Positions 6,740 to 51,854 of a DNA stretch of 64,000 bases are shown here, piece after piece. The DNA comes from a virus. The stretch spans positions 1-64,000 of IMG/VR virus record IMGVR_UViG_3300009173_000010, one strand, 5' to 3'. Within the stretch, counting starts at the first letter, position 1, and the number at the start of each line of letters is the position of its first letter. The notes below the pieces were generated by a model. That model was given only the letters and a program-made list of their open reading frames with translations. It made no database searches and was not told the origin of the DNA. The translations under genes were made by a program, and so were the position numbers.

Positions 6740-6764
6740 TTTATACTTTTAACATATAGATTAT

Positions 6765-6790
6765 AAAGAGGGCTAATTAGCCCTCTTTAT
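6765..6790. terminator. Bidirectional terminator between convergent genes
   Basis: Stem AAAGAGGGCT/AGCCCTCTTT with a short AATT loop and A/T tracts on both sides. It lies between the plus-strand fibre gene ending at 6739 and the minus-strand gene ending at 6777, whose stop codon is inside the hairpin. Confidence 0.85.
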
Positions 6791-7460
6791 TTTTGAGTTT
6801 AATAATAGTTAAAGGTTCATTCGGATCATATTCGTACATTGTATTAAATGCTTTAATCCAAAGATCAAATTCTTTTTGTTGTTCAAGTGCTTCATGGTAT
6901 ATAACAGGAAGCATATACATATTAGTATTCTTCCATCGTATAGCATGATGTTTAATTAATTGTTTTAAATTTTCATTGTCAAATTTAATTGATTCAATTA
7001 CCTCGTCAAGCCATTTATGATTTTTAAATAAACTTAAAAACCAGATGTGTGTTTTATTGTTCTCATCATATTCAAGTTGTGTTACTTGTAAGTCATAATA
7101 TAATGCTCTTACAGGATGAATCTCTGGACGATATTTTATTAAAACTGTTGGAAATTTAAAATCTGCTTTTTTTGATTTATATGTGTCTTGTAATACAAGG
7201 TAATCATTTGCAAAATCATTTTTATTTTTATGATATTTGTCTACTTTAAAGTTAATAATCTGCCTTTTAATTTCCTGCAGAAGTTTTCGAGTTTTTTTAT
7301 CCGTAAACTCTTTTTTCCAATAATCTATAGCAAGGTACGCTGAACTGAATTTATTCTTATACTTTCCTTCTGAAAAGTATTTTGGGATAGTTCCAGTTAT
7401 GTCGAATGCCTTTATTTGCCTATGTAATTCTGCCTTTATTAGATTAATTATAGTTGCCAT
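6777..7460 (-). CDS. Hypothetical protein, minus strand
   Basis: I do not recognise this 227-residue basic protein. It is rich in Lys, Tyr and Phe with alternating helical segments and no membrane span. Residues near 100-190 contain WFLSLFKNHKWLDEV and HEALEQQKEFDLWI. An SD-like AAGGAGCC lies 9 nt before the ATG, and a late-type box is at 7497-7504 on the same strand. It is an isolated inverted gene between a fibre gene and a 2OG oxygenase, a position often taken by moron-like accessory genes. Confidence 0.7.
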   Translation of the reverse strand: MATIINLIKAELHRQIKAFDITGTIPKYFSEGKYKNKFSSAYLAIDYWKKEFTDKKTRKLLQEIKRQIINFKVDKYHKNKNDFANDYLVLQDTYKSKKADFKFPTVLIKYRPEIHPVRALYYDLQVTQLEYDENNKTHIWFLSLFKNHKWLDEVIESIKFDNENLKQLIKHHAIRWKNTNMYMLPVIYHEALEQQKEFDLWIKAFNTMYEYDPNEPLTIIKLKNKEG

Positions 7461-8242: not shown

Positions 8243-8435
8243 AACAAGTGCTCTAATTAGTACTTGTGTCTCGTTCCGTAACAGGAACTCCATGCGTTTA
8301 TCTGCCCCCGCCTGAGACCGGGGAGGTTTAGAGAGGCATCTCTTAACTAAGCCTAGGATAAGTCAACATATGCAGTTGGCCTAGTCTAGAGTGATAAACA
8401 AGCCTATTTATAGACTTAATGGAGGTAATCATAAA
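8243..8435 (+). other. Hairpin-rich 5' leader of the giant fibre gene
   Basis: No coding frame is supported here. Reading downstream from the late box, successive stems are ACAAGT/ACTTGT (8244-8267), GTTCC/GGAAC (8273-8288), CCCCG/CGGGG (8306-8323), AGAGA/TCTCT (8330-8343), and a two-part CTAGG-CAAC/GTTG-CCTAG stem (8353-8384). The SD sequence GGAGG lies after them. It could be a stability or translational control element, or carry a processed small RNA. Confidence 0.5.
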
Positions 8436-11400
8436 ATGGCAAATATCAAAAACTTTGGTATTGCTGGTGTTTCAGCCGACGTTCAGATGGGTAAGAGTGG
8501 TGGCCGCTTAGTATATGATAGCGGTAATACACTATTCAAATTTACTACATCAGACGGTTCAACATTAGCAAAACTACGTGTCGCTGAACCATCAGGTACA
8601 ACTGATGCTGCTTCGAAAGGATACGTTGATGGTGTTGCTTCTGGCTTAGATGTTAAAGATTCGGTACGTGTTGCTACTACAGCGGCAGGTACTCTCTCTT
8701 CATCTTTTGCTAACGGCAGTACAGTTGACGGCATTTCACTAGCAACCAACGACAGAATTTTAATTCAAGACCAAGTAAGTGGTGCAGAAAACGGTATCTA
8801 CACAGTTAACGCTTCTGGCGCACCAACTCGTGCAACAGATTTCGACGCTGACAGTGAAGTAACCGCTGGTGCATTTACATTCGTTGAAGAAGGTACAACA
8901 AACGCTGATAACGGTTTTGTACTAACAACAGATGGTACAATCACAGTAGGTACAACAGCAATAGCGTTCGCTCAGTTCTCTGGTGCGGGTTCAATTATTG
9001 CTGGTGCAGGTTTAACTAAATCTGGTAGCACATTGAATGTTATTGCAGGTACTGGTATTACAGTAAATGCTAACGATGTGCAGATTTCTGCCTCATACGC
9101 TGGTCAAAATACAATAACAACCCTCGGTACAGTTGCTACAGGTACATGGAACGGCACAGGCATTGCAAATGCTTATGTTGACAATGACCTAACAATTTCC
9201 GGTGGTACAGTAGACAATTCAATAATTGGTGGTACAACACCAGTTGCTGGTACGTTTACAACACTAACAGCCAATACATCTCTTGTAGGTACATTGGGAA
9301 CAGCCGCACAAGGTAGCGTTACATCTTTGGGTACACTAACAGCACTCAACGTTGATAACCTTAACTTAAACGGTAATGCAATTACATCAACAGACTCTAA
9401 TGGTAACATTGACCTAACCCCACACGGTGTTGGTGAAGTTAACATTACTAAAGTTGATATTGACGGCGGCGCAATCGACGGCACAATAATTGGTGCTAAC
9501 TCAGCAGTCGCTGGTACATTCGGTGCCTTAACATCAACTGGTACATCAACACACGCATCAGTAGATATTAATGGTGGTGCAATTGACGGAACTAACATTG
9601 GTGCGGCTTCGGTTGGTACTGGTGCGTTCTCAACAATTAGTGCAACTGGTACAACAACTGGTGTTGCCGCTAATTATAGTGGCGCAGTAGGCGTTGACGG
9701 TAACTTTGATGTTGCTACTAACAAGTTCACCGTAGCCGCGGCGACTGGTAATACAGTTGTTGCTGGTACACTTGGTGTAACTGGTCTATCAACATTGGCA
9801 ACAGTTGATGTTGGTGGTGGTGCAATTGACGGTACAATAGTTGGTGCCGCTTCGGCAGCCGCTGGTACGTTTACAGCATTAACTGCAACAGGCACATCGA
9901 CACTTCCAGTTATTAATGGTAGTGGTGCGTGGACCAACACTGGTACACTTACAGCAGGTACAGTTGACATTAATGGCGGTGCTATTGACGGCACTAACAT
10001 TGGTGCTAACGCACAAGGCACTGGTCGTTTTTCATCGTTGCAAGCAGATACACTTGCTGGCGCATTGAATGCTTCTAGTCAAGCCATTACAAACGTTAAT
10101 ATTGATAGTGGTGCAATCGACGGTACTCCAATTGGTGCAAATTCAGTATCAACTGGTGCTTTCGGCGCATTAACATCAACTAGTCATGTTTCCTCAGGTA
10201 ACATTTCTGGTGTTGACGGTACATTCTCCGGTAACCTCGCAGTTACAGGTAATATTGTTGGTAGCGGCAATTTAACAATCAGTGGTGATACTGTTACAGC
10301 AAACGTAACAACTATTACTATTGAAGATCCACTAATGCTACTTTCAAGTAGTGCAGCCGATGCTGGTACAGTTGACGCTGGTTTTGTTGTAGAGCGTGGT
10401 TCTTCTGCTAACGTAGCATTGCTATGGGACGAATCAGCAGATGAGTTCGCGGCAATTTCTACAACAGATACAGGTACTACAGCAGGTAACGTTACAATCG
10501 CTGCCTATGCAGACTTCAAGGCCAAAGATGTTCAGGCCGGAGGTGCATTAACAGCAGCCGGTGCTACAACACTTAGTGGTGCTCTTACTGTTTCAGGTGG
10601 TGGTGCAGTTGCTCTAGGTGCAAGTGCCTTAACAGGTTCTGGTGCGTGGACACATACTGGTACACTTACAGCAGGTACAGTTGACATTAACGGTGGTGCA
10701 ATTGATGGAACAGCAATTGGTGCGGCTTCGGCAAGCACTGGTGCGTTCTCAACATTGAGTGCAACCGGTACATCAACACTAACAACTGTTGATATCAATG
10801 CAGGTAATATTGATAATACAGTAATTGGTGCAAGTACAGCAGTCGCTGGTACATTTGCGGCGTTGACAGCAACTGGCACATCAACACTTTCAACTGTTGA
10901 TATTAACGCTGGTGCAATTGATGGAACAGCAATTGGTGCAAATTCAGTATCAACTGGTGCGTTCTCAACAATTAGTGCAACTGGTGCAATCACTGGTGAT
11001 TTAACTGGTGACGTAGCAGGTAACGTAACATCAACTGGTACTTCAACTTTCACAACCGTAGATATTAACGGTGGTGCAATTGACGGTACTAATATTGGTG
11101 CTAACCAAGTAGGTACTGGACACTTCTCAACATTAGGTGCAACCGGTACATTAACTGGTGTTGCCGCTAACTTTAGTGGTGCAGTAGGCGTTGATGGCAA
11201 CTTTGATGTTGCTACTAACAAGTTCACAGTAAATGCAACTAGTGGTAACACACAGGTTGCTGGTACACTGGGTTCAACAGGTGCAATTACAGCATCAGCA
11301 GGCGTAACTGGTGATTTAACTGGTAACGTTGCTGGTAACGTAACATCAACTGGTACTTCAACTTTCACAACCGTAGATATTAACGGTGGTGCAATTGATG

Positions 11401-13685
11401 GTACAGCAATTGGTGCTAACTCAGCATCAACTGGTGCGTTCTCAACATTGAGTGCAACAGGTACAACAACTGGTGTTGCCGCTAACTTTAGTGGTGCAGT
11501 AGGCGTTGATGGCAACTTTGATGTTGCAACCAACAAAATGACAGTCGCAGCCGCATCTGGTAATACAACTATTGCTGGTACACTTGGCGTAACTGGTGCA
11601 ATTACTGGTGCTTTAACTGGTAACGTAACTGGTAATGTAACTGGTGACTTAACTGGTAACAGTGCTGGTACACATACTGGTGCAGTATCTGGTAACGTAA
11701 CATCAACTGGTACTTCAACATTTACAACTGTTGACATTAATGGCTGTGCTATTGATGGTACAATTATTGGTGCTAACGCAGCCGTAGCAGCCGATTTTAC
11801 AACAATGGATGCAACTGGTAATGTTACAATTGGCGGTACTCTAGCAGTAACCGGTAATACAACACTAACAGGCAACCTAACTATAAACGGTACAACAACA
11901 GATGTTTCAACTGTTAATACAGTAATTGAAGACGCTGTTATTATGGTCAACAATGGCGAATCTGGTGCAAGCGTTACAGGCGTTTTCTCTGGTATCTCAG
12001 TTGACCGTGGTTCGTCAGCAAATGCCCATATGGTATTTGATGATGGACAAGATCGTTGGGAATTCCTAACAGGCCACGACACAATTGCTTCAGCCTCACT
12101 TGGCAACGTAGCATTTGGTACAGTCGGTGCAGGTACATGGCAAGGTACAGCAATTGCTGACACATATGTTGCTAACGATCTAACAATTAGTGGTGGTACA
12201 GTAAACAACTCAGTCATTGGTGGTTCAACTGCCGCGGCTGGTACATTTACAACACTTGGCTTTGATACACTAGGTTCTGCTGTTGATATGGGGAACCAAA
12301 ATCTTACTAATGTTGACATTGATAGCGGTGCTATTGATGGTACAGTAATTGGTGCCGCTTCGGCAGCCGCAATTACAGGTACTACTATTACAGCAAGTTC
12401 CTCATTAGTAGGTACACTAGGTACAGCATCTCAAACTAATGTTACCGGTCTCGGTACAATTGGTACAGGTGTATGGCAGGGTACAGCAGTAGCCGCAGGC
12501 TTCGGTGGTACCGGTATTGATACTTCAAGTTCAACTGGCGCAGTTCGCGTAGACAGTGGTACTTGGTCTGTAGGTGATGTAAGCCTAACAGCAGACGTAT
12601 CTGGTACACTTCCAGTTGCAAATGGTGGTACTGGTATTACATCAGGAACAACTAATCAGTTCTTGAAGTTTACAGGTTCTACAACAATTGGTGCAGGCTA
12701 TGCAGAAGACCTCTATGCTAATGATGTTAAAGTCTTTAGTGCAAGTGGTGCAACAACCTCAGGTGCTGGTGAAGGTGTAAAACTAACCAACGCTTCCGGT
12801 AAGGCATACTTCCGTTCAGTGAATACAGCAGGCTCAGGCGACGTTGATCTATATCTCGGCGCTCAAGACTCTGGTGACGTTGTTATTGAAGGTACAGGTA
12901 ATGGCGTAGTTAAAGGCGATAACGATCTCGACTTAACAGTACGAGGTGGTGATTCCTCTGCCGCAGACGCTGGTGATTTAATTCTCTCCGGTGGCAACGG
13001 CACAGGCTCAAATGCCTCTGGTAATGTATACATCCAGGGCGGTTTGGGTGGTTCTGCTAACGGTAATGTACAAATTCGTGATGCAAATGGCTTAGAAGTA
13101 TTGAAATTCACAGAGACAGGAAGTGCTGTCAATGAGATGACAATTGCTAACGCGGCCACATCAGGTACACCAACCTTAAGCACAACAGGTAGCGACACAA
13201 ACATTACATTGCTTATCAGTCCTAAGGGTTCGGGCGTTATTAACGTTCCAGCATCTTATGCGGCACGAGCAGGTTTTGGCACAAACTCACTAGCAACAAA
13301 AGAATATGTTGATAATAATTCTTCAACAGAAACTTTTGCTAGACGTGCGTCGTTCACAGCCAATAGTTCAGCAAATGATTTTGCTGTTGGTACTATTAAC
13401 TCAGGTACAACAAACTATATTAATCGAGTAACAGTAGCCGTTACAACTGCTTTAAGCGGTGGTAGCGTATCTGGCGTTCGACTACATGATGGTACAGCGT
13501 ACTTGACCGCTCTAGATGATTGTGATACATCAGAAACAGGAACTTATGTTATTGATCTTCCAACATCAACAGCAACAGCCGCAAGTGCGGTACTTACAGC
13601 AAAAGTTGTTCAGAGCAATGGCACAACTGCCTCTGTTCCAACAGCAGGCGTTGTAGTAGTAACAGCACAGTGGGTGAAAGTATAA
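8436..13685 (+). CDS. Giant repeat-rich tail fibre / virion structural protein
   Basis: About 1,749 residues. I chose ATG 8436 because GGAGG stands 10 nt before it and MANIKNFGIAGVSADVQMG is a typical start; a longer frame opens at 8391 without an SD. Residues 1-200 form a head domain (PSGTTDAASKGYVDGVASG; DRILIQDQVSGAENGIYTVN). Residues from about 300 to 1,310 are built from repeats of the VDINGGAIDGTNIGANS, FSTLSATGTST and FSGAVGVDGNFDVATNKFTV types. Two blocks near residues 640 and 1,170 contain an IEDPLML/IEDAVIM..VERGSSAN motif. The C-terminus has a SLATKEYVDNNSS segment and a separate beta-rich tip. It is probably the main receptor-binding fibre, but this is inferred from size and repeats. 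Confidence 0.8.
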   Translation: MANIKNFGIAGVSADVQMGKSGGRLVYDSGNTLFKFTTSDGSTLAKLRVAEPSGTTDAASKGYVDGVASGLDVKDSVRVATTAAGTLSSSFANGSTVDGISLATNDRILIQDQVSGAENGIYTVNASGAPTRATDFDADSEVTAGAFTFVEEGTTNADNGFVLTTDGTITVGTTAIAFAQFSGAGSIIAGAGLTKSGSTLNVIAGTGITVNANDVQISASYAGQNTITTLGTVATGTWNGTGIANAYVDNDLTISGGTVDNSIIGGTTPVAGTFTTLTANTSLVGTLGTAAQGSVTSLGTLTALNVDNLNLNGNAITSTDSNGNIDLTPHGVGEVNITKVDIDGGAIDGTIIGANSAVAGTFGALTSTGTSTHASVDINGGAIDGTNIGAASVGTGAFSTISATGTTTGVAANYSGAVGVDGNFDVATNKFTVAAATGNTVVAGTLGVTGLSTLATVDVGGGAIDGTIVGAASAAAGTFTALTATGTSTLPVINGSGAWTNTGTLTAGTVDINGGAIDGTNIGANAQGTGRFSSLQADTLAGALNASSQAITNVNIDSGAIDGTPIGANSVSTGAFGALTSTSHVSSGNISGVDGTFSGNLAVTGNIVGSGNLTISGDTVTANVTTITIEDPLMLLSSSAADAGTVDAGFVVERGSSANVALLWDESADEFAAISTTDTGTTAGNVTIAAYADFKAKDVQAGGALTAAGATTLSGALTVSGGGAVALGASALTGSGAWTHTGTLTAGTVDINGGAIDGTAIGAASASTGAFSTLSATGTSTLTTVDINAGNIDNTVIGASTAVAGTFAALTATGTSTLSTVDINAGAIDGTAIGANSVSTGAFSTISATGAITGDLTGDVAGNVTSTGTSTFTTVDINGGAIDGTNIGANQVGTGHFSTLGATGTLTGVAANFSGAVGVDGNFDVATNKFTVNATSGNTQVAGTLGSTGAITASAGVTGDLTGNVAGNVTSTGTSTFTTVDINGGAIDGTAIGANSASTGAFSTLSATGTTTGVAANFSGAVGVDGNFDVATNKMTVAAASGNTTIAGTLGVTGAITGALTGNVTGNVTGDLTGNSAGTHTGAVSGNVTSTGTSTFTTVDINGCAIDGTIIGANAAVAADFTTMDATGNVTIGGTLAVTGNTTLTGNLTINGTTTDVSTVNTVIEDAVIMVNNGESGASVTGVFSGISVDRGSSANAHMVFDDGQDRWEFLTGHDTIASASLGNVAFGTVGAGTWQGTAIADTYVANDLTISGGTVNNSVIGGSTAAAGTFTTLGFDTLGSAVDMGNQNLTNVDIDSGAIDGTVIGAASAAAITGTTITASSSLVGTLGTASQTNVTGLGTIGTGVWQGTAVAAGFGGTGIDTSSSTGAVRVDSGTWSVGDVSLTADVSGTLPVANGGTGITSGTTNQFLKFTGSTTIGAGYAEDLYANDVKVFSASGATTSGAGEGVKLTNASGKAYFRSVNTAGSGDVDLYLGAQDSGDVVIEGTGNGVVKGDNDLDLTVRGGDSSAADAGDLILSGGNGTGSNASGNVYIQGGLGGSANGNVQIRDANGLEVLKFTETGSAVNEMTIANAATSGTPTLSTTGSDTNITLLISPKGSGVINVPASYAARAGFGTNSLATKEYVDNNSSTETFARRASFTANSSANDFAVGTINSGTTNYINRVTVAVTTALSGGSVSGVRLHDGTAYLTALDDCDTSETGTYVIDLPTSTATAASAVLTAKVVQSNGTTASVPTAGVVVVTAQWVKV
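9450..12370 (+). repeat. Long array of degenerate in-frame fibre repeats
   Basis: Many copies of a DNA segment like GATATTAACGGTGGTGCAAT (encoding DINGGAID), interleaved with blocks encoding GVAANFSGAVGVDGNFDVATN near 9660, 11155 and 11475. Near-identical long stretches would allow recombination between copies and changes in fibre length. Confidence 0.8.
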
Positions 13686-16895: not shown

Positions 16896-18197
16896 ATGGC
16901 CATTTATAAAACAACTAAAAAATCTAAAAAACGTAGACCTCGTAAAAAAACAGACCTCGGCGAGTCCCCCAATTGGCCAGTATTTTTAGCCGACGGCCCT
17001 ACGGATATGGCTATATATTCATATCATTCGCATTCTATGCAATGGTATAACTATAATCATAAAGCCAAAGATTTGCGTAAAGATGTTGAATTGTATCTAA
17101 AAAAGAACAAATATTCTAAAAAAGACATTAATGCTTGGAAGGCCGCAGATGTTTGGCGTACAGGTGTTACTGTTTCAGGTTTATGTAAAATGATGAATGA
17201 AGGAATGATTGAGGTTCTACCTAATCCGTATAAACAAGATAATAAGTATAAACATTCTTATGATAAAACTTGGGAGCCTGTATCTGGACATATATGGATA
17301 CAAAACAAACTTGCTGAAATAATTGATCATGGTAAAAAAGCAATTGCTGAAAACAAAGTAGTTGAAAAAGAAAATAAATTAAAAGCACCCCCAAAAACAA
17401 TTCAAGAACGTATGCACGAAAAACTTTTAGAATTTTTAGAAGAAACCGAAGGTGCAATAGAAGATTTTTTATATGGTGACAAGCCTTTTGTATCAGATTA
17501 TAGTATGTATAAACATCTTACAAGAGACGCATTGCCTCCTAAAATAGCATCGCAAATTGTTAAAATATATGAAGGCGAGGCCGAAGAATACCAAGAATTA
17601 GCAAAGCCTTGCACAGAATCACAATTAAAGAAAATGACTGAGCAGGATCAAGATTATCATATGCAACTGTTAGAAGGACATTCTCATACGACAAAACCTC
17701 AAGCAAAAAAAATTGCTACGTTTTATGAAACCCTTATTGCTGATGTTAATATGTATATTGATTCTGCTAAAGTTTCGAGAACACCTCGTAAGAAAAAAGC
17801 ACCAACAAAAGAAAAGTTAATAGCAAAACTTAAATTTAAAACAAATGATGAAAAATATAGGATAGCAAGTATTAATCCAATAGATATTATCGGTGCTGAT
17901 GAATTATGGGTGTTTAATACTAAAACACGTAAACTTGGAAAGTATATAGCATTGAATACCGATCCTATGGGACTTAAAAGAGATGGTTCGGGACTATCAG
18001 TAAAAGGTACTACAATTTTAGGTTTTCATGTTGAACAAAGTATTCAGAAGACTTTGCGTAAGCCTGAAGAACAATTAAAAGAATTTACAAAATCAGGAAA
18101 AGTAAAACTTCGAAAGTTTCTCGAAAAAATTAAGACTACAGATATTAAATTAACCGGTAGAATTAATAACGAGACGATTATACTCAAAGCCAGTTAA
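16896..18197 (+). CDS. Hypothetical protein, basic, early-promoter driven
   Basis: I do not recognise this 433-residue protein. It opens with a strongly basic stretch (KTTKKSKKRRPRKKTDLG). The middle is charged and helical, and the last 170 residues (KAPTKEKLIAKLKFKTNDEKY on) look like a compact domain with DELWVFNTKTRKLGKYIAL. GTGGAGATATA precedes the ATG. Basic N-terminus and an early sigma70 promoter suggest a nucleic-acid-binding early protein, which is only inference. It heads a plus-strand run leading into the aromatic-catabolism cassette. Confidence 0.75.
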   Translation: MAIYKTTKKSKKRRPRKKTDLGESPNWPVFLADGPTDMAIYSYHSHSMQWYNYNHKAKDLRKDVELYLKKNKYSKKDINAWKAADVWRTGVTVSGLCKMMNEGMIEVLPNPYKQDNKYKHSYDKTWEPVSGHIWIQNKLAEIIDHGKKAIAENKVVEKENKLKAPPKTIQERMHEKLLEFLEETEGAIEDFLYGDKPFVSDYSMYKHLTRDALPPKIASQIVKIYEGEAEEYQELAKPCTESQLKKMTEQDQDYHMQLLEGHSHTTKPQAKKIATFYETLIADVNMYIDSAKVSRTPRKKKAPTKEKLIAKLKFKTNDEKYRIASINPIDIIGADELWVFNTKTRKLGKYIALNTDPMGLKRDGSGLSVKGTTILGFHVEQSIQKTLRKPEEQLKEFTKSGKVKLRKFLEKIKTTDIKLTGRINNETIILKAS

Positions 18198-18233
18198 ATA
18201 CATATAGAAATGTATTTGAAGGAGATGGGTCTA

Positions 18234-18503
18234 ATGGGACACTTGAAAGATGCCGCGATCGCGGCGAATCGTAAATGTAACTTTTCTTATTACTGCTATC
18301 ATGCTTGGATAGCATGCCGAGCAGGAACCTTGTTGGGATATTTGTCACTAATGTCATATGTCCATGCTTTTTTTCCGTTCGTATATGCTAAGTTCGGCCT
18401 GGCTGAATTAATTATTCGTAATACTAATAATATACGTAGGTCTATACCCGATTGGGAAGGCTGGAAAGAGTTAGATAATTGGGATGATGAGAAATACAAA
18501 TAA
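18234..18503 (+). CDS. Small membrane-associated hypothetical protein
   Basis: An 89-residue protein starting at ATG 18234, chosen because AAGGAGA precedes it by 9 nt. A longer frame from 18210 has no SD. One hydrophobic segment (residues about 28-57, AGTLLGYLSLMSYVHAFFPF) could span the membrane, followed by a charged tail ending in DWEGWKELDNWDDEKYK. The pattern loosely resembles the DUF6356 family of small proteins, but I am not sure. Its stop codon lies inside the late box that precedes the IOR gene. Confidence 0.65.
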   Translation: MGHLKDAAIAANRKCNFSYYCYHAWIACRAGTLLGYLSLMSYVHAFFPFVYAKFGLAELIIRNTNNIRRSIPDWEGWKELDNWDDEKYK

Positions 18504-18564: not shown

Positions 18565-21500
18565 ATGTTTAACTTGAACGATAGATATATCGTTTCGAGT
18601 GGTGAATTTGTTCTGTCAGGTGTACAAGCAATTGTAAAATTGTCCCTTCTTCAAAAAGAACTTGATAAGAAGAATGGGTTAAATACTGCCGGTTATGTAA
18701 CAGGATACAGAGGATCGCCGCTCGGAACAGTAGATAAGGAGTTTCTCGCCCAGAGAGACCTTTTAACTAAAAACAACATTACTTTTCATCCTAGCATTAA
18801 CGAAGATATTGCAGTTGCAACATTGCAAGGTACACAGCAATTAGGCATTGTATCCAAGGCTACTGTTGACGGCGTATTTGGATTCTGGTATGGCAAAGGC
18901 CCGGGTGTTGATAGATCCGGAGATCAATTTAAGCATACAAGTTTTTTTGGTACTTCGCAATATGGTGGCTGTTTAGCATTTGCTGGTGACGATCATTCAA
19001 ACAAAAGTTCTACTATCCCCCACGAGACTGGCCCCACGTTTAAAACGTGGCGTATACCCGTTATAACGCCCGCTACAGTGGAGGATGTTATCCGGCTGGG
19101 TCTAATGGGTATCGCTATGAGTCGATACAGTGGATTATGGTCTAGTATGAAGATTATTTCTAACTTAGCAGATGCGTATCAAACTGTTAGTATTAATTTA
19201 GATAGTTGGAAGCCAAATATCCCTAATAATCCTCCAGTGGTGTTTGATGTTCATGCACGGTGGCCTGATTTAGGTGTTGAGCAAGAAGCACGTATTACAG
19301 AACAAAAACTTCCTGCATTGCAAGAATTTATGCGGTATAATATGTTTGATAGTTATAACTTGCCAAAAGAAACGCATATGCGATTTAGTAGTGATAATCG
19401 CGTTGGCATTGTTGCTGTCGGAAAAAGTTATGTTGATACGTTAACTGCAATGCAAAAACTTGGAATTACAACAGATGATGTTGGTTTATATAAAGTTGGA
19501 ATAGCCTGGCCATTGCACGAAGAACACCTCATAAATTTTTGTACATCATATCATGATATTCTTGTTGTCGAAGAAAAATCTGGATTAGTTGAAGATCAAT
19601 TGTATAAACTTTTATATAATAAACAACATAAGTGTAATTCTAGTAGAGATCAAATAAAAATACATGGTAAGAATTTATTACCGCAAAATTTAGATTTTGA
19701 TGCATATGAAATAGCAAAAGCATTACAAGAATTATTTGATAAAACCGGCGGTGTTTGGGGTTGGGGTATTGGAAATGCTGACGGCGGCAAGAAAGCATTA
19801 GACGTAAAACTAGACGATAGTTACGAATCAGTAGAAAAAAGAGAACCGCATTTTTGTAGTGGTTGCCCACACAATTCAAGTACAGTATTACCAGAAGGTA
19901 GCAAAGCATTAATAGGCATTGGTTGTCATTATATGACAGCGTGGATGCCTGACAGGCCAAGTGTTACGTTAATGCCTATGGGCGGCGAAGGCGCAAACTG
20001 GATTGCGGCACAACATTATCAAGAAGCCAAACACGTATTTGTAAACTTAGGTGACGGTACATATTTTCATAGTGGATTGTTAGCAATTAGAGCAAGCGTT
20101 GCCGCTGATAGTACTATTACATATAAAATATTATATAATGATGCAGTAGCAATGACAGGCGGCCAGCCAATAGATGGTGACCTCTCGGTAGCACGTATAT
20201 GTGAACAAGTAATGGCAGAAGGGGTTAAAGACGTAGCAGTAGTTACAGTCGATGGTTATGCTAATGAAATTTTGCCGCGCGGAGTTACATTACATTCAAA
20301 AGACGAATATATACAGTTGCAAAAAAGTTATACAAAAATTAAAGGCACTAGTGTAATAGTATTTGATCAACAATGTGCTACAGAAAAAAGAAGAAAACGA
20401 AAACGAGGCTTACAACCACTAGCAGAAGAATTTGTATGGATTAATTCAGCAGTATGTGAGAACTGTGGTGACTGTTCAACACAATCAAATTGTCTAAGTA
20501 TAATTCCAACAGAAACTAAATTAGGAACAAAACGACAAATAGATTATGATAACTGTAACTATTCTTACGATTGCTTAGAAGGATTCTGTCCTTCGTTTGC
20601 TACAATTAAAGGACGTAAACCAGCAGTAGAACTTGTTAAACCAAAGTTCCCAAAGTTAGTTAATTATTTGCATCCAAAAATTTCAAAGCCGGAACGTTAT
20701 AATATACTTGTTGCTGGTATCGGCGGCACTGGCGTTATTAGCACTAGTCAAATGATGTGTGTTGCCTCACATATCGATGGCATAAAAGTTATCTCAACAG
20801 ATCAGACCGGGTTAGCACAAAAGTACGGAGCAGTAACATCTACAATTAGTTTAGGAGAGAAAGCATTTGGCAGAATGTTTCCAAAATCCTGTGATGTAGT
20901 AATAGGCATAGATCCACAAGTTACAGCAATGGAAGATTCAATGCGTTTTATTGGGCCGAATACAACAGTTATTCTTAATAAAAGTTTGGCGGCCAATGCT
21001 GAGATAATAAGAAATAGAGATTGGAAGTTAGAACTTGATGATATTGTTAATGTATTAAAAACACAATGTAAGGAAGTAATTATTATAGATGCTTCTAATT
21101 ACGCTAAAAAAATAACTGGTAATGCTGTAATGGTTAATATGTTGATGCTTGGTTACGCATATGAAAAATGCTTGTTACCATATAGTGAAAAAGCAATGAT
21201 AAAAGCAATTGAAGCAAACGGTGTCGCAGTAGATAGTAATAAAAATGCGTGGATGATTGGCAGGCAATCTGCTACAGTCGAAGGCCATGGCGCAATTGAA
21301 CGTTCTTTGAATCCAGAGGTAAAAGATACTTTTTATAGTGCAATGTATCATAGGCACGAATTGTTAAAGAAATATCAAGACGAAGAATATGCTAACATTT
21401 ATTTAGACATAGTTACGAGAGCAAAGTTAAAAGAAGATTTCTTAAATTCAGGCACTCACAGTCATTTTAATACAGAATTTTCCGAAGCAGTAATGCGTAA

Positions 21501-21918
21501 TTTATACAAGTTAATGGCATACAAAGATGAATATGAAGTAGCCCGTATTTGGAGTGCAACACCTGAAATTAACAAATATAAAACAATTAAATTTCATATG
21601 TGCTTGCCTTGGAATCGAAAGTCACAAAAGAAAACAAGAATAGGCACGTGGGCAAAATATGTATTTGCTGTATTACAACATGGTAAAAAACTTAGAGGTA
21701 AAATATATGATCCTCTTGGATTTACATATGAACGAAGGCTGGAAAGAAAAATAAGAGATTGCTATATTTTGTTGGTTGAAGAGTGGATCAAAAATATTAA
21801 GACGGATAACTATAGTAATACAGAAAGACTAGCAAAACTCCCTGATAACATTAGAGGATATGGACATATTAAGTTAGCAAGTATTTGTAATTGTGAATTA
21901 TTTAAGGACGTAATATGA
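18565..21918 (+). CDS. Fused indolepyruvate:ferredoxin oxidoreductase (IorAB type)
   Basis: A 1,117-residue, apparently complete 2-oxoacid:acceptor oxidoreductase of the fused proteobacterial kind. This family oxidatively decarboxylates aryl pyruvates (indolepyruvate, phenylpyruvate, 4-hydroxyphenylpyruvate) to aryl-acetyl-CoA, passing electrons to ferredoxin. The pyrimidine-side domain is at about residues 1-240 (GYRGSPLGTVDKEF, NEDIAVATLQGTQQLG). Then come HFCSGCPHNSS near 428 and the thiamine-diphosphate GDGT motif near 495. A [4Fe-4S] cluster region at about 630-676 has CENCGDC, SNC, CNYSYDC and GFCPSF. The gamma-type domain begins near 715 (GIGGTGV..DQTGLAQKYGAV), followed by the usual C-terminal region. 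All motifs look intact. Its stop overlaps the next start (ATGA). I know of no phage function for this enzyme. Confidence 0.93.
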   Translation: MFNLNDRYIVSSGEFVLSGVQAIVKLSLLQKELDKKNGLNTAGYVTGYRGSPLGTVDKEFLAQRDLLTKNNITFHPSINEDIAVATLQGTQQLGIVSKATVDGVFGFWYGKGPGVDRSGDQFKHTSFFGTSQYGGCLAFAGDDHSNKSSTIPHETGPTFKTWRIPVITPATVEDVIRLGLMGIAMSRYSGLWSSMKIISNLADAYQTVSINLDSWKPNIPNNPPVVFDVHARWPDLGVEQEARITEQKLPALQEFMRYNMFDSYNLPKETHMRFSSDNRVGIVAVGKSYVDTLTAMQKLGITTDDVGLYKVGIAWPLHEEHLINFCTSYHDILVVEEKSGLVEDQLYKLLYNKQHKCNSSRDQIKIHGKNLLPQNLDFDAYEIAKALQELFDKTGGVWGWGIGNADGGKKALDVKLDDSYESVEKREPHFCSGCPHNSSTVLPEGSKALIGIGCHYMTAWMPDRPSVTLMPMGGEGANWIAAQHYQEAKHVFVNLGDGTYFHSGLLAIRASVAADSTITYKILYNDAVAMTGGQPIDGDLSVARICEQVMAEGVKDVAVVTVDGYANEILPRGVTLHSKDEYIQLQKSYTKIKGTSVIVFDQQCATEKRRKRKRGLQPLAEEFVWINSAVCENCGDCSTQSNCLSIIPTETKLGTKRQIDYDNCNYSYDCLEGFCPSFATIKGRKPAVELVKPKFPKLVNYLHPKISKPERYNILVAGIGGTGVISTSQMMCVASHIDGIKVISTDQTGLAQKYGAVTSTISLGEKAFGRMFPKSCDVVIGIDPQVTAMEDSMRFIGPNTTVILNKSLAANAEIIRNRDWKLELDDIVNVLKTQCKEVIIIDASNYAKKITGNAVMVNMLMLGYAYEKCLLPYSEKAMIKAIEANGVAVDSNKNAWMIGRQSATVEGHGAIERSLNPEVKDTFYSAMYHRHELLKKYQDEEYANIYLDIVTRAKLKEDFLNSGTHSHFNTEFSEAVMRNLYKLMAYKDEYEVARIWSATPEINKYKTIKFHMCLPWNRKSQKKTRIGTWAKYVFAVLQHGKKLRGKIYDPLGFTYERRLERKIRDCYILLVEEWIKNIKTDNYSNTERLAKLPDNIRGYGHIKLASICNCELFKDVI

Positions 21919-22331
21919 AGTTGCAAGGATTACATCATTTTGCGTGGAAGTGCCGAAACGCAGATGAAACGATACATTTTTATTCACATATCTTAAAACT
22001 TCCACACGTTCATACTATCGAAAAGGATCATGTTCCGAGTACAGGAGCATATGCACCTTATAAACATATTTTCTTCCAAATGGAAGATGGCAGTAATATT
22101 GCTTTTTTTGATTTAGGTGATAATAAAGGAACCACAACAGATTGTGATGATTGGGTAGTGCATTTTGCTTTTAATGTTAGTACAAAAGAAGATGTTGATA
22201 ATTGGTGTCAATATTTAAAAAATAATAATATAGATGTTATAGGCCCTACTAATCATGATGATTGGATTTATAGCATTTATTTTTTCGATCCTAATGGATT
22301 GAGATTAGAGATTACAACACAGATAAACTAG
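21915..22331 (+). CDS. VOC / glyoxalase-fold protein
   Basis: A 138-residue single VOC domain. LHHFAWKCRNADETIHFYSH opens the first beta-alpha-beta-beta-beta module and DDWVVHFAFNV the second. FFDPNGLRLEI is the typical end. Likely metal ligands are a His of the N-terminal HH, the His of VVHFAF and the Glu of LRLEI. Members include glyoxalases, extradiol dioxygenases and epimerases; 4-hydroxyphenylpyruvate dioxygenase has the same fold but is about 350 residues, so this is not a full HPPD. The ATG overlaps the IOR stop codon, showing translational coupling. It could act on an aromatic ring or acyl intermediate, which is inference from neighbours. Confidence 0.85.
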   Translation: MKLQGLHHFAWKCRNADETIHFYSHILKLPHVHTIEKDHVPSTGAYAPYKHIFFQMEDGSNIAFFDLGDNKGTTTDCDDWVVHFAFNVSTKEDVDNWCQYLKNNNIDVIGPTNHDDWIYSIYFFDPNGLRLEITTQIN

Positions 22332-22347
22332 TATATGGAAATATTAA

Positions 22348-23106
22348 ATGACAGGCGGCCGAATAAAAGATTCAAGTAGTGTAAAAATAACACAGTTTTG
22401 TGATGGGAGCGCATATTTAATTCATGCGGAAAGAGTTCGAAAATCACGCGGAGAAGAATTACCTGAGCAATTGAGAACAGATCCGTTAATGTACCAAGGC
22501 GTTAGCGATAAATTTTTAGAATATAACGAACCAATATATCCTTATAAAGAGGCATATGGTTTAGATTTTGAAGCAGAAGTTGGTGTAATTTTAGATGATA
22601 CCCCAATGGGGGTATCTGTATCCGAAGCAACAGAATATATTAAATATGTTACAATTATTAATGACATTAGTTTGCGTAAATTAATACCTGCAGAATTAGC
22701 AAAAGGTTTTGGATTTTTACAAGGAAAACCTCATAGTTCCCTTGGATTAAAATGTATTCCTTTGCGTTTTTTAAATGGCACTTGGAAAGAACATGATGCT
22801 GTATTAGATGCAGACTTGGTTATTAATTATAATGGTGAGGAATTTGGTAGAATTAATACTGCAAATATGGATTTTAATTTTGCACAACTAATTTCACATG
22901 CGGCAAAAACTCGTCCATTGTCTTCAGGAACATTGATAGGAAGCGGCACTGTAAGCTCTCATGATCTTTCTGACGGTTATGGTTGTTTATTAGAACGCAA
23001 TGTAGTTGAAAGCATTAATGAATTTATGAATCCCGGCGATACAATTAAAATGTATATAGTTGGATATGAAGATACATTAATTATAGATCAACAAGTTGCT
23101 TTCTAG
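22348..23106 (+). CDS. Fumarylacetoacetase-family hydrolase, homogentisate-pathway type, short N-terminus
   Basis: A 252-residue FAH-fold hydrolase. Probable metal ligands E75, E77 (DFEAEVGVI) and D106 (INDISLR) are present, followed by KGFGFLQGKPHSS, LISHAAKTRPLSSGTLIGSG and PGDTIKM. The wording TDPLMYQG, ELAKGFGF and ISHAAKTR is typical of the bacterial subfamily of roughly 330 residues that ends the homogentisate (tyrosine) pathway. The phage protein begins about 70-80 residues later than those, at the equivalent of DGSAYLxHxERVRK, and an in-frame TAA just before the ATG rules out a longer form. It therefore keeps the catalytic domain and lacks the small N-terminal domain. It is 16 nt after the VOC gene. 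Confidence 0.9.
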   Translation: MTGGRIKDSSSVKITQFCDGSAYLIHAERVRKSRGEELPEQLRTDPLMYQGVSDKFLEYNEPIYPYKEAYGLDFEAEVGVILDDTPMGVSVSEATEYIKYVTIINDISLRKLIPAELAKGFGFLQGKPHSSLGLKCIPLRFLNGTWKEHDAVLDADLVINYNGEEFGRINTANMDFNFAQLISHAAKTRPLSSGTLIGSGTVSSHDLSDGYGCLLERNVVESINEFMNPGDTIKMYIVGYEDTLIIDQQVAF

Positions 23107-23134: not shown

Positions 23135-23887
23135 ATGCCACGAAAACCTACTTTAGCACGAAATGAAGTTATTCAGCGTTTAACAACACGTCTCGGCGGC
23201 GGCATGGTTGATGTGGAATTAGATCCAGATCATTATAATGTTGCTATCGATAGAGCAATTGATCGCTATAGACAGCGATCATCTAATGCTACCGAAGAAA
23301 GCGGAATGTTTTTAACGTTGCAACCAGACATAACAGAGTATATTCTACCAAATGAAGTATTAGAAGTACGTAAGTTATATAGACGTGCTATAGGCAGTGA
23401 TTCTGGCACAGGCGCTGGAATAGATCCATTTGATATGGCATTTACAAATCTTTATATTTTGCAAGCAGGCCGCGTTGGCGGCGTCGCTTTATATGATGCA
23501 TTTACTCAATACCAAGAAGTTGTAGGTAGAATTTTTGGTAGCGAAACAAATTTTATGTGGCATCCTAATACACACAAGTTAGAAATTATTCGAAGAGTAA
23601 AGAATGAAGAAAGCATTCTTTTACATGTTCATAACGAAAAACCAGAGAATGAAGTATTAAGAGATCGTAGAAGTAGATTATGGTTAGAGGATTATGCTTT
23701 GGCAAATTGTAAAATTATGTTAGGAGAAGCAAGAGGAAAATATCAATCCTTACCTGGTGCAGCCGGCGGCGTAGCCTTAAATGGCGAGACTTTAAAACAA
23801 GAAGGCCAAGCCGAGTTAGATCGGCTCGAAATGGAAATTACTCGTTACGGAGACGGCGGCGAACCACCTACTTTTATAATCGGTTAA
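23135..23887 (+). CDS. gp13: Neck protein gp13
   Basis: A 250-residue protein of the gp13 neck family of T4-like marine phages. NEVIQRLTTRLGGGMVDVEL, then AIDRAIDRYRQRSS and DRRSRLWLEDYALANCKIMLGEARGKY, match the family pattern. In T4, gp13 and gp14 form the neck ring onto which the tail docks. Here gp13 is on the plus strand with its own late box. Its partners gp14 and gp15 are about 6 kb away on the other strand, separated by the accessory cassette. AGAGGGACACAG precedes the ATG. Confidence 0.82.
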   Translation: MPRKPTLARNEVIQRLTTRLGGGMVDVELDPDHYNVAIDRAIDRYRQRSSNATEESGMFLTLQPDITEYILPNEVLEVRKLYRRAIGSDSGTGAGIDPFDMAFTNLYILQAGRVGGVALYDAFTQYQEVVGRIFGSETNFMWHPNTHKLEIIRRVKNEESILLHVHNEKPENEVLRDRRSRLWLEDYALANCKIMLGEARGKYQSLPGAAGGVALNGETLKQEGQAELDRLEMEITRYGDGGEPPTFIIG

Positions 23888-48499: not shown

Positions 48500-48777
48500 A
48501 GAATTTGTTCCGGAGTGATGGAATTGGTAGACATGCTGGGCGGTTTACTCAGTGTCCTTGGCAGGGCGTGAAGGTTCGAATCCTTCCTCCGGAGCCAGTT
48601 TTTAATTTTAAGACTTAGGCTTCTTCGGCTTCTTTTTTTCTTTCTTGGGTTTGTCTCTATTTTTACTTTCCATCCTTGTTTTCCTATGGTTCGTGTTGTA
48701 TCTACATCTCCGAACTCGCCCATACTTTTACCAGTTTGTATTTGCCTACTATAATCGTATGGATCTTTACCGTTCAT
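48496..48777 (-). CDS. Small basic hypothetical protein; 3' end overlaps tRNA antisense
   Basis: The start ATG 48777 overlaps the end of the CCA-enzyme gene, so it could be coupled. MNGKDPYDYSRQIQTGKSMG and GDVDTTRTIGKQGWKVKIET look like a real small domain. After the Lys run (48640-48655) the frame continues through the antisense of the tRNA (RKDSNLHALPR), an artefact typical of tRNA antisense. Shifting one base in the A-run would end the protein at about 58 residues with KEAEEA. The real 3' end is therefore doubtful. Confidence 0.4.
   Translation of the reverse strand: MNGKDPYDYSRQIQTGKSMGEFGDVDTTRTIGKQGWKVKIETNPRKKKRSRRSLSLKIKNWLRRKDSNLHALPRTLSKPPSMSTNSITPEQIL
48509..48597 (+). tRNA. tRNA-Leu-like gene with aberrant anticodon loop
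   Basis: Acceptor stem TCCGGAG/CTCCGGA (7 bp), Leu-type D arm GGAATTGGTAGACAT, anticodon stem CTGGG/CTCAG, variable arm GTCCT/AGGGC, T arm GAAGG-TTCGAAT-CCTTC, then G and encoded CCA. The class II shape fits Leu. The 7-nt anticodon loop (48541-48547) is CGGTTTA. It lacks U33 and a purine at 37, and no register of the stem gives a Leu anticodon. Either the loop has changed so that the RNA no longer decodes, or there is a sequence error. It follows the aaRS-like gene and precedes the opposite-strand CCA-adding enzyme. Confidence 0.8.
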
Positions 48778-49963
48778 CGATCACTGTTGATAATAATTCT
48801 TCTTTGCTAGGTTTGTAGTTTTTAGACTTCCATTCGTCTCGTAACTTTGTTAGTAAAGCACCCATGTTAGGACCAGGTTTTACATCTGCACTAATTAAGT
48901 CTTTTCCTGTTACAGGAAATTCTGGTACTTGCCAACTTCTAATATGATTTGCAATAGCATCTTTGTCTTGTATTTTAGCAAGAGCATAAACAAAATATTG
49001 ATGAGTTTCATCAACTAAAAATTCTTCTGCACTTTGCTGTGTTAGAGGTGTATTTTTAAATTCAGTTAAAAAAGATAAAAGTTGCATTTCTGCATTTGAT
49101 AGTTTCCATGCATTACCTATCGCGTCTACATCTTTTATATTACGCATAAGACTTGCTAAAGGAACAATAGGACTTTGCATTGTACTAACTTTTTCTGCTA
49201 GTGCAATATCATCTAATGGTAGATTAATATTTTTTGTAACGCCTGTTTTTTCTAAATGTACTAATATGTCTTTTACATTGTTACCTAACAGTATCTTTTG
49301 CATTTCCATCCATATACGTTCACCAGAAATTTGTGTTAAACCTTTAACATTGCTTTTTATAGCATCTAATGTATCTTTCTCCCAAGTAGGATTATTAATG
49401 CGTCCTTGGAATCTAAAGTAGCGCAAAATTCTTAAATAATCTTCTTGTATACGTTGTTCCGGTTCACCTACAAATTTACTTACTTTATCTTGTAAGTCAT
49501 TTGCTCCATTAAAATAATCATATACTGTACCGTCTAAATCTAATGACATAGCATTGTATGTTAAATCTCTGCGTTTAGCATCTTCTTCCCAACTACGTAT
49601 AAATTCAACAGTAGCGTGTCTACCAGTATGTTCTGCGTCTGCACGTAACGTTGTAATTTCTAATTGTTCTTTATTAATTACAGCGGTAATTGTTCCGTGC
49701 TGTAATCCTGTTGGAATATACTTAATATTGCCCTTTTCAAACATTTCAACCATTTCGTCTGGTGTAGCATCTGATGCTAAGTCTGTATCTTTGGGCAATT
49801 TGCCAAGCATTAGGTCTCGAACTGCACCACCAACAATACGTAGTTCAAATCCGTTTTTATGAAAAAGGTTACCGAGTGAAACTACACCAGCAGTAAGAAT
49901 TTGTTTAAATTCGTCACTATCTAGTTTTTCTTGTGCCTCAACTAAAAATTCTAATGCTCTCAT
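48767..49963 (-). CDS. cca: CCA-adding enzyme / poly(A) polymerase family, with capsid-targeting-like N-terminus
   Basis: A 398-residue class II tRNA nucleotidyltransferase. The signature GGAVRDLMLGKLPKDTDLAS has the GG-motif and catalytic DxD. RRDLTYNAMSLDL and RIQEDYLRILRYFRFQGRI follow as in the family. It adds or repairs tRNA 3' CCA. I start it at ATG 49963, exactly 5 nt after a late box. This gives MRALEFLVEAQEKLD, very like the T4 capsid-targeting peptide, with a LVE/A site. The enzyme might thus be late-made and packaged. An upstream in-frame TTG at 49978 has no support. Confidence 0.9.
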   Translation of the reverse strand: MRALEFLVEAQEKLDSDEFKQILTAGVVSLGNLFHKNGFELRIVGGAVRDLMLGKLPKDTDLASDATPDEMVEMFEKGNIKYIPTGLQHGTITAVINKEQLEITTLRADAEHTGRHATVEFIRSWEEDAKRRDLTYNAMSLDLDGTVYDYFNGANDLQDKVSKFVGEPEQRIQEDYLRILRYFRFQGRINNPTWEKDTLDAIKSNVKGLTQISGERIWMEMQKILLGNNVKDILVHLEKTGVTKNINLPLDDIALAEKVSTMQSPIVPLASLMRNIKDVDAIGNAWKLSNAEMQLLSFLTEFKNTPLTQQSAEEFLVDETHQYFVYALAKIQDKDAIANHIRSWQVPEFPVTGKDLISADVKPGPNMGALLTKLRDEWKSKNYKPSKEELLSTVIDER

Positions 49964-49968
49964 ACATA

Positions 49969-49976
49969 TATTTACC
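49969..49976 (-). promoter_or_regulatory. Late promoter box (GGTAAATA), leaderless spacing, minus strand
   Basis: Exactly 5 nt before the minus-strand ATG at 49963. No SD. Confidence 0.6.
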
Positions 49977-49996
49977 AAGATATATATTTGTAATGA

Positions 49997-51048: not shown

Positions 51049-51298
51049 CGAAATTAATTTTGTCCATCCGAGCATTTCTGATAAAGATATAGAACTGTTT
51101 GGTTTTGATGATATTGAAAATGTTCCGATTCAGGAGCATTGGATCATGGCCCATATTATGGTTGAGGCAGGCCTATTTACTAGTATAAGCAATGCTCGCA
51201 AAAATGGTTGGAACACGCCTATACCAAAAGGCTTCTGGCAGAAAAAAGTTGGCAAGATGAGAAAGTTGATAAGTATACTAAATGAGTTGGAAGGATAG
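51041..51298 (+). CDS. Small hypothetical protein (GTG start)
   Basis: An 85-residue protein starting at GTG 51041, which overlaps the previous stop. DKDIELFGFDDIENVPIQEH, then HIMVEAGLFTSISNARKNGW, resembles an S4-like or tyrosyl-type small RNA-binding element (GLFxSxSxARxxxx), but this is weak. It ends in a basic helix. It is translationally linked to the SpoT-like gene. Confidence 0.6.
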   Translation: MTNEINFVHPSISDKDIELFGFDDIENVPIQEHWIMAHIMVEAGLFTSISNARKNGWNTPIPKGFWQKKVGKMRKLISILNELEG

Positions 51299-51299
51299 T

Positions 51300-51854
51300 A
51301 TGCGAATTATAGAGGTAGATCAAGAGAACGTGGTTAATAAGGCTTTGGCGTTTGCTAAAGATGCCCACGAATCCATCGGCCAGAAACGAAAGTACACTGG
51401 CGAGGATTACATTGTCCATCCAATAGAAGTTTCACAGATTGTTAAATCGGTTGGCGGATCCGAAGCAATGCAAGCGGCCGCCCTTTTGCACGATACCGTT
51501 GAAGACACAAATGTCACGAATGCGGAAATTGTTGAGCATTTCGGTCCTGCGATCGCTAAACTAGTAAATGAACTAACTGATATAAGTAAACTCGAAGATG
51601 GAAATCGAGCCCTTAGGAAAGAAATGGACAGAGAGCATTCTGCTAGTGCTAGTGCTGATGCACAAACGGTAAAATTGGCTGATTTGATCAGCAACAGCAA
51701 AAGCATCGTAAAACACGATCCAAATTTTGCTAAAGTTTATATTAGAGAAAAAGAGGCTCTTTTGCAGGTGCTAGATAAGGGCAATTCTCGTTTACACGCA
51801 ATCGCGACGAAACAAGTTGCAGATGCGAAAGAAACCCTAAAAATATCAGGGTAA
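51300..51854 (+). CDS. SpoT/MESH1-type HD hydrolase
   Basis: A 184-residue stand-alone HD-domain protein of the SpoT hydrolase family. I start at ATG 51300 after GAAGGATA. Metal ligands fit the family: H40 (YIVHP), H64-D65 (LLHDTVEDT), D128 (VKLADLISN); H23 and QKRK at 28-31 are also typical. Family members hydrolyse (p)ppGpp, and MESH1 also NADPH. A phage copy could lower host alarmone levels and keep transcription and translation going during infection. No synthetase domain. Confidence 0.88.
   Translation: MRIIEVDQENVVNKALAFAKDAHESIGQKRKYTGEDYIVHPIEVSQIVKSVGGSEAMQAAALLHDTVEDTNVTNAEIVEHFGPAIAKLVNELTDISKLEDGNRALRKEMDREHSASASADAQTVKLADLISNSKSIVKHDPNFAKVYIREKEALLQVLDKGNSRLHAIATKQVADAKETLKISG

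Follow-up and report, generated by a model that had tools for sequence, protein, structure and literature searches.

Candidate genes for the breakdown of aromatic amino acids among the neck genes of a group of T4-like jumbo phages

Auxiliary metabolic genes of phages are already known, and most of them serve photosynthesis, central carbon, nucleotide, sulfur or phosphate metabolism. Like the cyanophage genes for photosynthesis and carbon metabolism, the locus described here consists of host-type enzymes under purifying selection, inserted among virion genes at a site of variable content; it differs in being a predicted catabolic module for aromatic amino acids. The sequence analysed (the window) comprises 64,000 nucleotides, positions 1 to 64,000 of IMG/VR record IMGVR_UViG_3300009173_000010, which is 72,806 bases long. 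Between positions 18565 and 23106 it contains three complete, adjacent, full-length open reading frames (ORFs) for a fused indolepyruvate:ferredoxin oxidoreductase family protein (IOR), a VOC-fold protein and a fumarylacetoacetate hydrolase-family protein (FAH). Our interpretation, to which we assign a probability of about 0.78, is that the neck-gene region of a group of T4-like jumbo phages has a hotspot loaded with an exchangeable aromatic amino acid catabolism module.

The closest bacterial systems are the homogentisate operons of the hpd-hmgA-FAH-maiA type, which share homologous HPPD, FAH and haem-oxygenase-like genes with the phage set. The latter differs in that no HmgA or MaiA was found, ring cleavage is assigned to the VOC protein, FAH is shorter by approximately 85 N-terminal residues, and the set also includes IOR and a class III aminotransferase. 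With the fused IOR family (NF009589/PRK13030) the phage enzyme shares the full-length fusion of TPP, Fe-S and gamma domains, with DUF6537 in addition, whereas the phage IOR clade has only approximately 40% identity to the bacterial members sampled and forms a separate deep group. At least one VOC-type homogentisate 1,2-dioxygenase, from Acinetobacter, has already been deposited in the PDB (9u42). The phage VOC resembles it in fold (TM 0.88 on the query), sequence (38-39% identity) and operon context; proteins of the phage branch are without its C-terminal extension (138 vs 182 aa), and their activity is predicted.

According to the initial annotation, no phage cassette of such composition is known to have been described. 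The open-licence full-text literature yielded no phage or auxiliary metabolic gene case with HPPD, homogentisate, tyrosine degradation or IOR, and neither a VOC-type enzyme nor a phage module had been reported in the open-licence papers found for homogentisate combined with VOC, glyoxalase or phage. INPHARED had no record encoding an FAH relative at E 1e-5 and no true phage with an IOR close to that of the window, and its only VOC relatives were in mislabelled Acinetobacter records. The IOR and VOC matches in 'Acinetobacter phage MD-2021a' (L029, L271) were discarded: these records contain long bacterial catabolic clusters and look like bacterial assemblies with a phage label.

The slot upstream of the gp13-like gene

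When gp13 was used as anchor, 24 IMG/VR loci were obtained. In twelve relatives the slot was empty, with 56-257 bp between the two flanking matches, and for this reason the slot is regarded as a hotspot. Other relatives carried different cargo. A single contig from a separate metagenome (L005) contained the phrog_11903 gene, a thioredoxin-like gene and an IOR gene (55% identity) followed by gp13. A class III aminotransferase gene preceded gp13 in L004 and L006, and in L003 the order was FAH, haem-oxygenase-like gene, HPPD and gp13. Alignment-based scans added five loci (L110, L111, L114, L131 and L132), all with the aminotransferase gene, which was followed by the IOR gene in all except L132. 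L110 and L111 also contained VOC, and L111 had FAH as well (aminotransferase, IOR, VOC, FAH). The final 269 bases of L111 were 100% identical to the first 269 bases of L003. Because of this overlap, one population probably carries the order aminotransferase-IOR-VOC-FAH-haem-oxygenase-like-HPPD-gp13. Over the 6.3 kb leading to the cargo, L005 and L114 had 99.8% identity; from there they differed, which suggests recent exchange of cargo.

The junctions of the cassette are genuine and not the product of chimeric assembly or bacterial contamination, since independent contigs show the same slot junctions. Thus the phage origin claimed in the initial annotation was upheld, as was the coupling of the three genes: the start of VOC overlaps the stop of IOR by 4 bases, and the spacers are 16 bases between VOC and FAH and 28 bases between FAH and gp13. 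The proposed location between gp14 and gp13 held on the downstream side, where the gp13-like adaptor is found, but the upstream neighbour is a phrog_11903 protein that is not clearly gp14. The cassette can be classed as auxiliary metabolic genes in that it lies inside a phage genome with junctions common to independent contigs; in infection it would be expressed and act on host metabolism. The closest matches of the gp13-like adaptor (53%) and the tail sheath (42%) are in jumbo phages, among them PA5oct with its 286 kb, and the record is therefore probably a fragment.

Predicted activities of the cassette proteins

The conserved VOC residues H8, H83, E132, H114 and Y122 align to H153, H214, E265, H246 and Y255 of the catechol 2,3-dioxygenase XylE, whose catalytic roles are textbook knowledge. 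The protein thus has a 2-His-1-Glu site together with the second-sphere His and Tyr of extradiol enzymes. The top PDB match of its AlphaFold model (pLDDT 87) was 9u42 (E 8e-13, 38% identity), entitled homogentisate 1,2-dioxygenase. An Acinetobacter gene near-identical to 9u42 and annotated as FosB sits in an aroP-FAH-MaiA-VOC-IclR-hpd cluster. Bacterial relatives of the VOC were found in the gene order HPPD-VOC-FAH(-MaiA), where the VOC stands in the place that HmgA would occupy. The operon inference preceded sight of the title of 9u42, so the two lines of evidence are independent.

Co-occurrence with HmgA was tested in 563 alpha- and gammaproteobacterial genomes, 128 of which had an FAH orthologue; the HmgA query also picks up the canonical HmgA type. 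HmgA was found in none of the 12 genomes with VOC within 3 kb of FAH and in 101 of the 116 other FAH genomes (Fisher p 3.8e-9 for the alphaproteobacteria and 5.7e-5 in the strong-VOC test for the gammaproteobacteria, in statistics that ignore phylogeny). A strong VOC was detected in 22 of the 27 genomes having FAH without HmgA. The extradiol residues, the operons without HmgA and the match to 9u42 indicate that VOC and FAH would represent two steps of the homogentisate pathway, with the VOC as the predicted ring-cleaving homogentisate dioxygenase and not an accessory protein.

FAH matched PF01557 with 102 bits and, over the catalytic domain, 3lzk with 189 bits, retaining the E-x-E/D metal site (E75, E77, D106). 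It is up to 55% identical to bacterial FAHs, many of them encoded in tyrosine operons, and by these sequence features is of the proteobacterial tyrosine-operon (3lzk) type. The initial annotation called it a homogentisate-type fumarylacetoacetase; it does not belong to the TIGR01266 equivalog, for which the score was 25 bits against a cut-off of 375. The match begins at phage residue 13, corresponding to residue 98 of 3lzk, and the protein has 252 residues where full length is approximately 330-345. Bacterial FAH orthologues occur in HPPD-HmgA-FAH-MaiA operons, several of which continue with a gene 52-57% identical to the phage haem-oxygenase-like gene. In bacteria the homologues of FAH, VOC, HPPD and the haem-oxygenase-like protein are encoded side by side in operons, and this, together with HPPD and the aminotransferase in the same slot of relatives, supports the aromatic amino acid theme first proposed. 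The haem-oxygenase-like protein itself (L003, 376-1197) would be a pathway member still without a role; its homologues lie 3' of MaiA in bacterial homogentisate operons (L207, L206, L209, L211).

IOR scored 1142 bits against the NF009589 cut-off of 816, with residues 2-1109 matched, and contains the POR, TPP_enzyme_C and DUF6537 domains. Loss of TPP or Fe-S residues, which would have spoken against the initial annotation, was not observed: the TPP motif (GDG at 496, ND at 525-526) is invariant across six phage and bacterial homologues, and so are C631, C634, C637, C643, C664, C670 and C675 of the CxxCxxC...C motif at 631. The subunit equivalogs gave scores below their cut-offs (TIGR03336, alpha, 132 vs 651 bits; TIGR03334, beta, 84 vs 206), therefore the substrate is not implied by these matches. 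In nine Burkholderiales an HPPD gene is located directly 5' of a fused IOR gene. The alignment-based IOR scan of IMG/VR yielded eight loci; a pattern-based single-protein scan was too specific and gave none. IOR occurred without other module genes in L113 and in L115, which has terminase-, DNA polymerase- and clamp-like ORFs (judged by eye). L116 was excluded as probable bacterial DNA, its IOR being close to those of Halieaceae and Pseudomonas.

The HPPD of L003 scored 298.5 bits against the TIGR01263 cut-off of 277, and its His-His-Glu iron ligands align to those of 1cjx.

An alternative explanation, improbable but the strongest of those considered, is that a different aromatic ring is the one degraded by the module. 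The VOC would then be a catechol extradiol dioxygenase, IOR would form a CoA ester by decarboxylating the 2-oxo acid from meta-cleavage, like EdcB/EdcC in oestrogen degradation, and FAH would be a C-C hydrolase or hydratase. The extradiol residues of the VOC are generic, the overlap of the IOR and VOC genes fits this scheme, and EdcC, a member of the IOR family, acts after a ring-cleaving dioxygenase in oestrogen degradation (PMC7793797). Homogentisate as the substrate is favoured by the HPPD-VOC-FAH-MaiA operons in which the relatives replace HmgA, by the nearest structure and by HPPD, which related phages have within the same gene set. A role of the VOC in resistance or detoxification, as a glyoxalase or a thiol transferase of the Fos type functionally unrelated to FAH, is very unlikely: homologues are labelled FosB, but the best Fos match of the phage protein (FosB) reached 41 bits against a cut-off of 171, and this identity was abandoned in view of the operon context, the retained catalytic extradiol residues, the exclusion of HmgA and the match to 9u42. 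One such homologue, in the tyrosine-catabolism cluster of L271 (5989-6537), is labelled 'fosfomycin resistance protein FosB'. Such labelling of VOC-type homogentisate dioxygenases may be a common misannotation giving false resistance calls.

Selection, origin and the proposed pathway

Among phage copies dN/dS was 0.06-0.26 where it could be estimated, indicating purifying selection on the cassette genes, whose products are therefore maintained. GC3 of IOR, VOC and FAH (0.18-0.25) resembles that of the virion genes. The phage VOCs form one clade (support 97/90); by path, the nearest bacterial row is an alphaproteobacterial VOC (G501) with 57% identity, whose gene adjoins FAH. The IORs of the window's phage group also form one clade (99), and those of L113 and L115 likewise fall outside the bacterial set. 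The tree proposed as a way to find the donor thus placed the phage IORs in a deep group separate from all bacteria sampled, among which no recent IOR donor was found. That the cassette is neutral passenger DNA or an assembly chimera is hardly credible: slot content does differ among relatives, even between L005 and L114 with their near-identical 6.3 kb next to the cargo, but the genes are under purifying selection, have phage-like GC3, cluster with other phage copies and share their junctions with independent contigs.

In its fullest form the module would comprise aminotransferase, IOR, VOC, FAH, haem-oxygenase-like protein and HPPD. Tyrosine would be transaminated to 4-hydroxyphenylpyruvate, which HPPD would convert to homogentisate. 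The VOC would open the ring to give maleylacetoacetate, and after isomerisation by the host MaiA, or non-enzymatically, FAH would release fumarate and acetoacetate. IOR, an arylpyruvate decarboxylase by family, would form a parallel branch competing for the same 2-oxo acid, in which arylpyruvates are oxidatively decarboxylated to arylacetyl-CoA with reduction of ferredoxin. The related set with aminotransferase and HPPD would nearly span the route from tyrosine to acetoacetate and fumarate. The window, with the IOR branch and the last homogentisate steps, would complete or boost a host route and would not run alone. The sequences themselves show the genes with unbroken active sites, purifying selection, the hotspot and the operon context in bacteria. 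Substrates, flux and benefit we infer: host protein or free aromatic amino acids would be the phage's source of carbon and electrons, and energy would be gained as acetyl-CoA and reduced ferredoxin.

Several observations weigh against this interpretation. The fullest six-gene set is a join of two contigs from different samples. Neither HPPD nor the aminotransferase was found in the 72.8-kb record of the window, itself a fragment, thus the window's own set is partial unless host or further phage genes complete it; elsewhere in the record, too, no additional cargo was found. HmgA and MaiA were not seen in any phage contig examined. The phage aminotransferase belongs to class III and has putrescine, polyamine and GABA transaminases among its relatives of known structure, and FAH lacks the N-terminal domain of the bacterial FAHs. 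Fused IORs are able to use ring-cleavage 2-oxo acids, as EdcC does (PMC7793797). Among the 27 genomes having FAH without HmgA, ten had a strong VOC only elsewhere and five had none, and the exclusion counts, uncorrected for phylogeny, come from genomes of unstated completeness.

Neighbouring genes, other phage lineages and implications

The features of the window are collected in Table 1. No PHROG family matched IOR or FAH. The T4 late promoter sequence TATAAATA was not enriched, and none was found upstream of the cassette. On L128 a p97 homologue, the haem-oxygenase-like gene and VOC are contiguous, and because the p97 homologue stands directly before the other two, p97 is probably cargo. The same contig has near VOC a short glutamine synthetase-like protein (3461-4420, 319 aa) and, adjoining VOC, an ORF similar to the class II tRNA synthetase core of the window (6107-6979).

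Table 1. Features of the window (coordinates in nucleotides)
Feature	Position	Strand	Basis or remark
Protein with many degenerate 'VDINGGAIDGT' repeats, 1764 aa; probably tail fibre	8391..13685		
phrog_11903 protein, 433 aa, no assigned function; left border of cargo slot, phage gene not cargo	16896..18197	+	phrog_11903 E 2e-58; adjoins gp13 in cargo-free relatives
p97, 97 aa, weak DUF6356 match; probable cargo	18210..18503	+	PF19883 21.3 bits, under 24.4 cut-off; L128 homologue 62%
IOR, fused indolepyruvate:ferredoxin oxidoreductase family protein, 1117 aa	18565..21918	+	NF009589 1142 bits; TPP and Fe-S motifs intact; 55-57% homologues in slot of L005, L110, L111, L114
VOC-fold protein, 138 aa, predicted VOC-type homogentisate 1,2-dioxygenase	21915..22331	+	PF00903; ligands His8, His83, Glu132; second-sphere His114, Tyr122
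FAH, fumarylacetoacetate hydrolase-family protein, 252 aa, catalytic domain only	22348..23106	+	PF01557; 189 bits to 3lzk; E75, E77, D106 conserved
gp13-like head-tail adaptor Ad2; right border of slot, not cargo	23135..23887	+	phrog_211 E 1.5e-31; 78-80% in L002-L006
Class II tRNA synthetase core, 276 aa	47669..48499		PF00152; directly before tRNA-Asn gene
tRNA-Asn gene	48509..48597		
Poly(A) polymerase- or CCA-adding enzyme-like protein	48767..49978	-	
HD_4 protein	51282..51854		similar to small (p)ppGpp hydrolases

Module genes were also found in other gene neighbourhoods. VOC-FAH-aminotransferase is contiguous in L118-L122, in contigs of up to 322,647 bases, and a 45.5-kb contig has a contiguous HPPD-FAH-VOC set adjoining folE. 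In L129 (10463-14647) FolE (GTP cyclohydrolase I) adjoins HPPD-FAH-VOC, and QueD/QueE-like ORFs come after it (by eye); these genes possibly serve 7-deazaguanine DNA modification. TctA- and TctC-like genes (tripartite tricarboxylate transporter) lie near HPPD or VOC-FAH in L127 (1093-3614) and L120 (937-3511), and could be uptake genes of the same module.

The chances are about even that several jumbo phage lineages share a mobile, near-complete tyrosine module (transaminase, HPPD, VOC, FAH) with an IOR branch, and that it runs in infection and converts host aromatic amino acids to acetoacetate, fumarate, arylacetyl-CoA and reduced ferredoxin, a virus-directed amino acid respiration. The gene content suggests that this group of giant uncultured T4-like phages burns the aromatic amino acids of its hosts in infection. 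A VOC family sometimes labelled FosB gains a testable function, and fosfomycin-resistance calls on such genes would then be false. If the interpretation is correct, a multi-gene catabolic module with an alternative homogentisate dioxygenase is shuffled among jumbo phages, and viral reprogramming would reach aromatic amino acid respiration.

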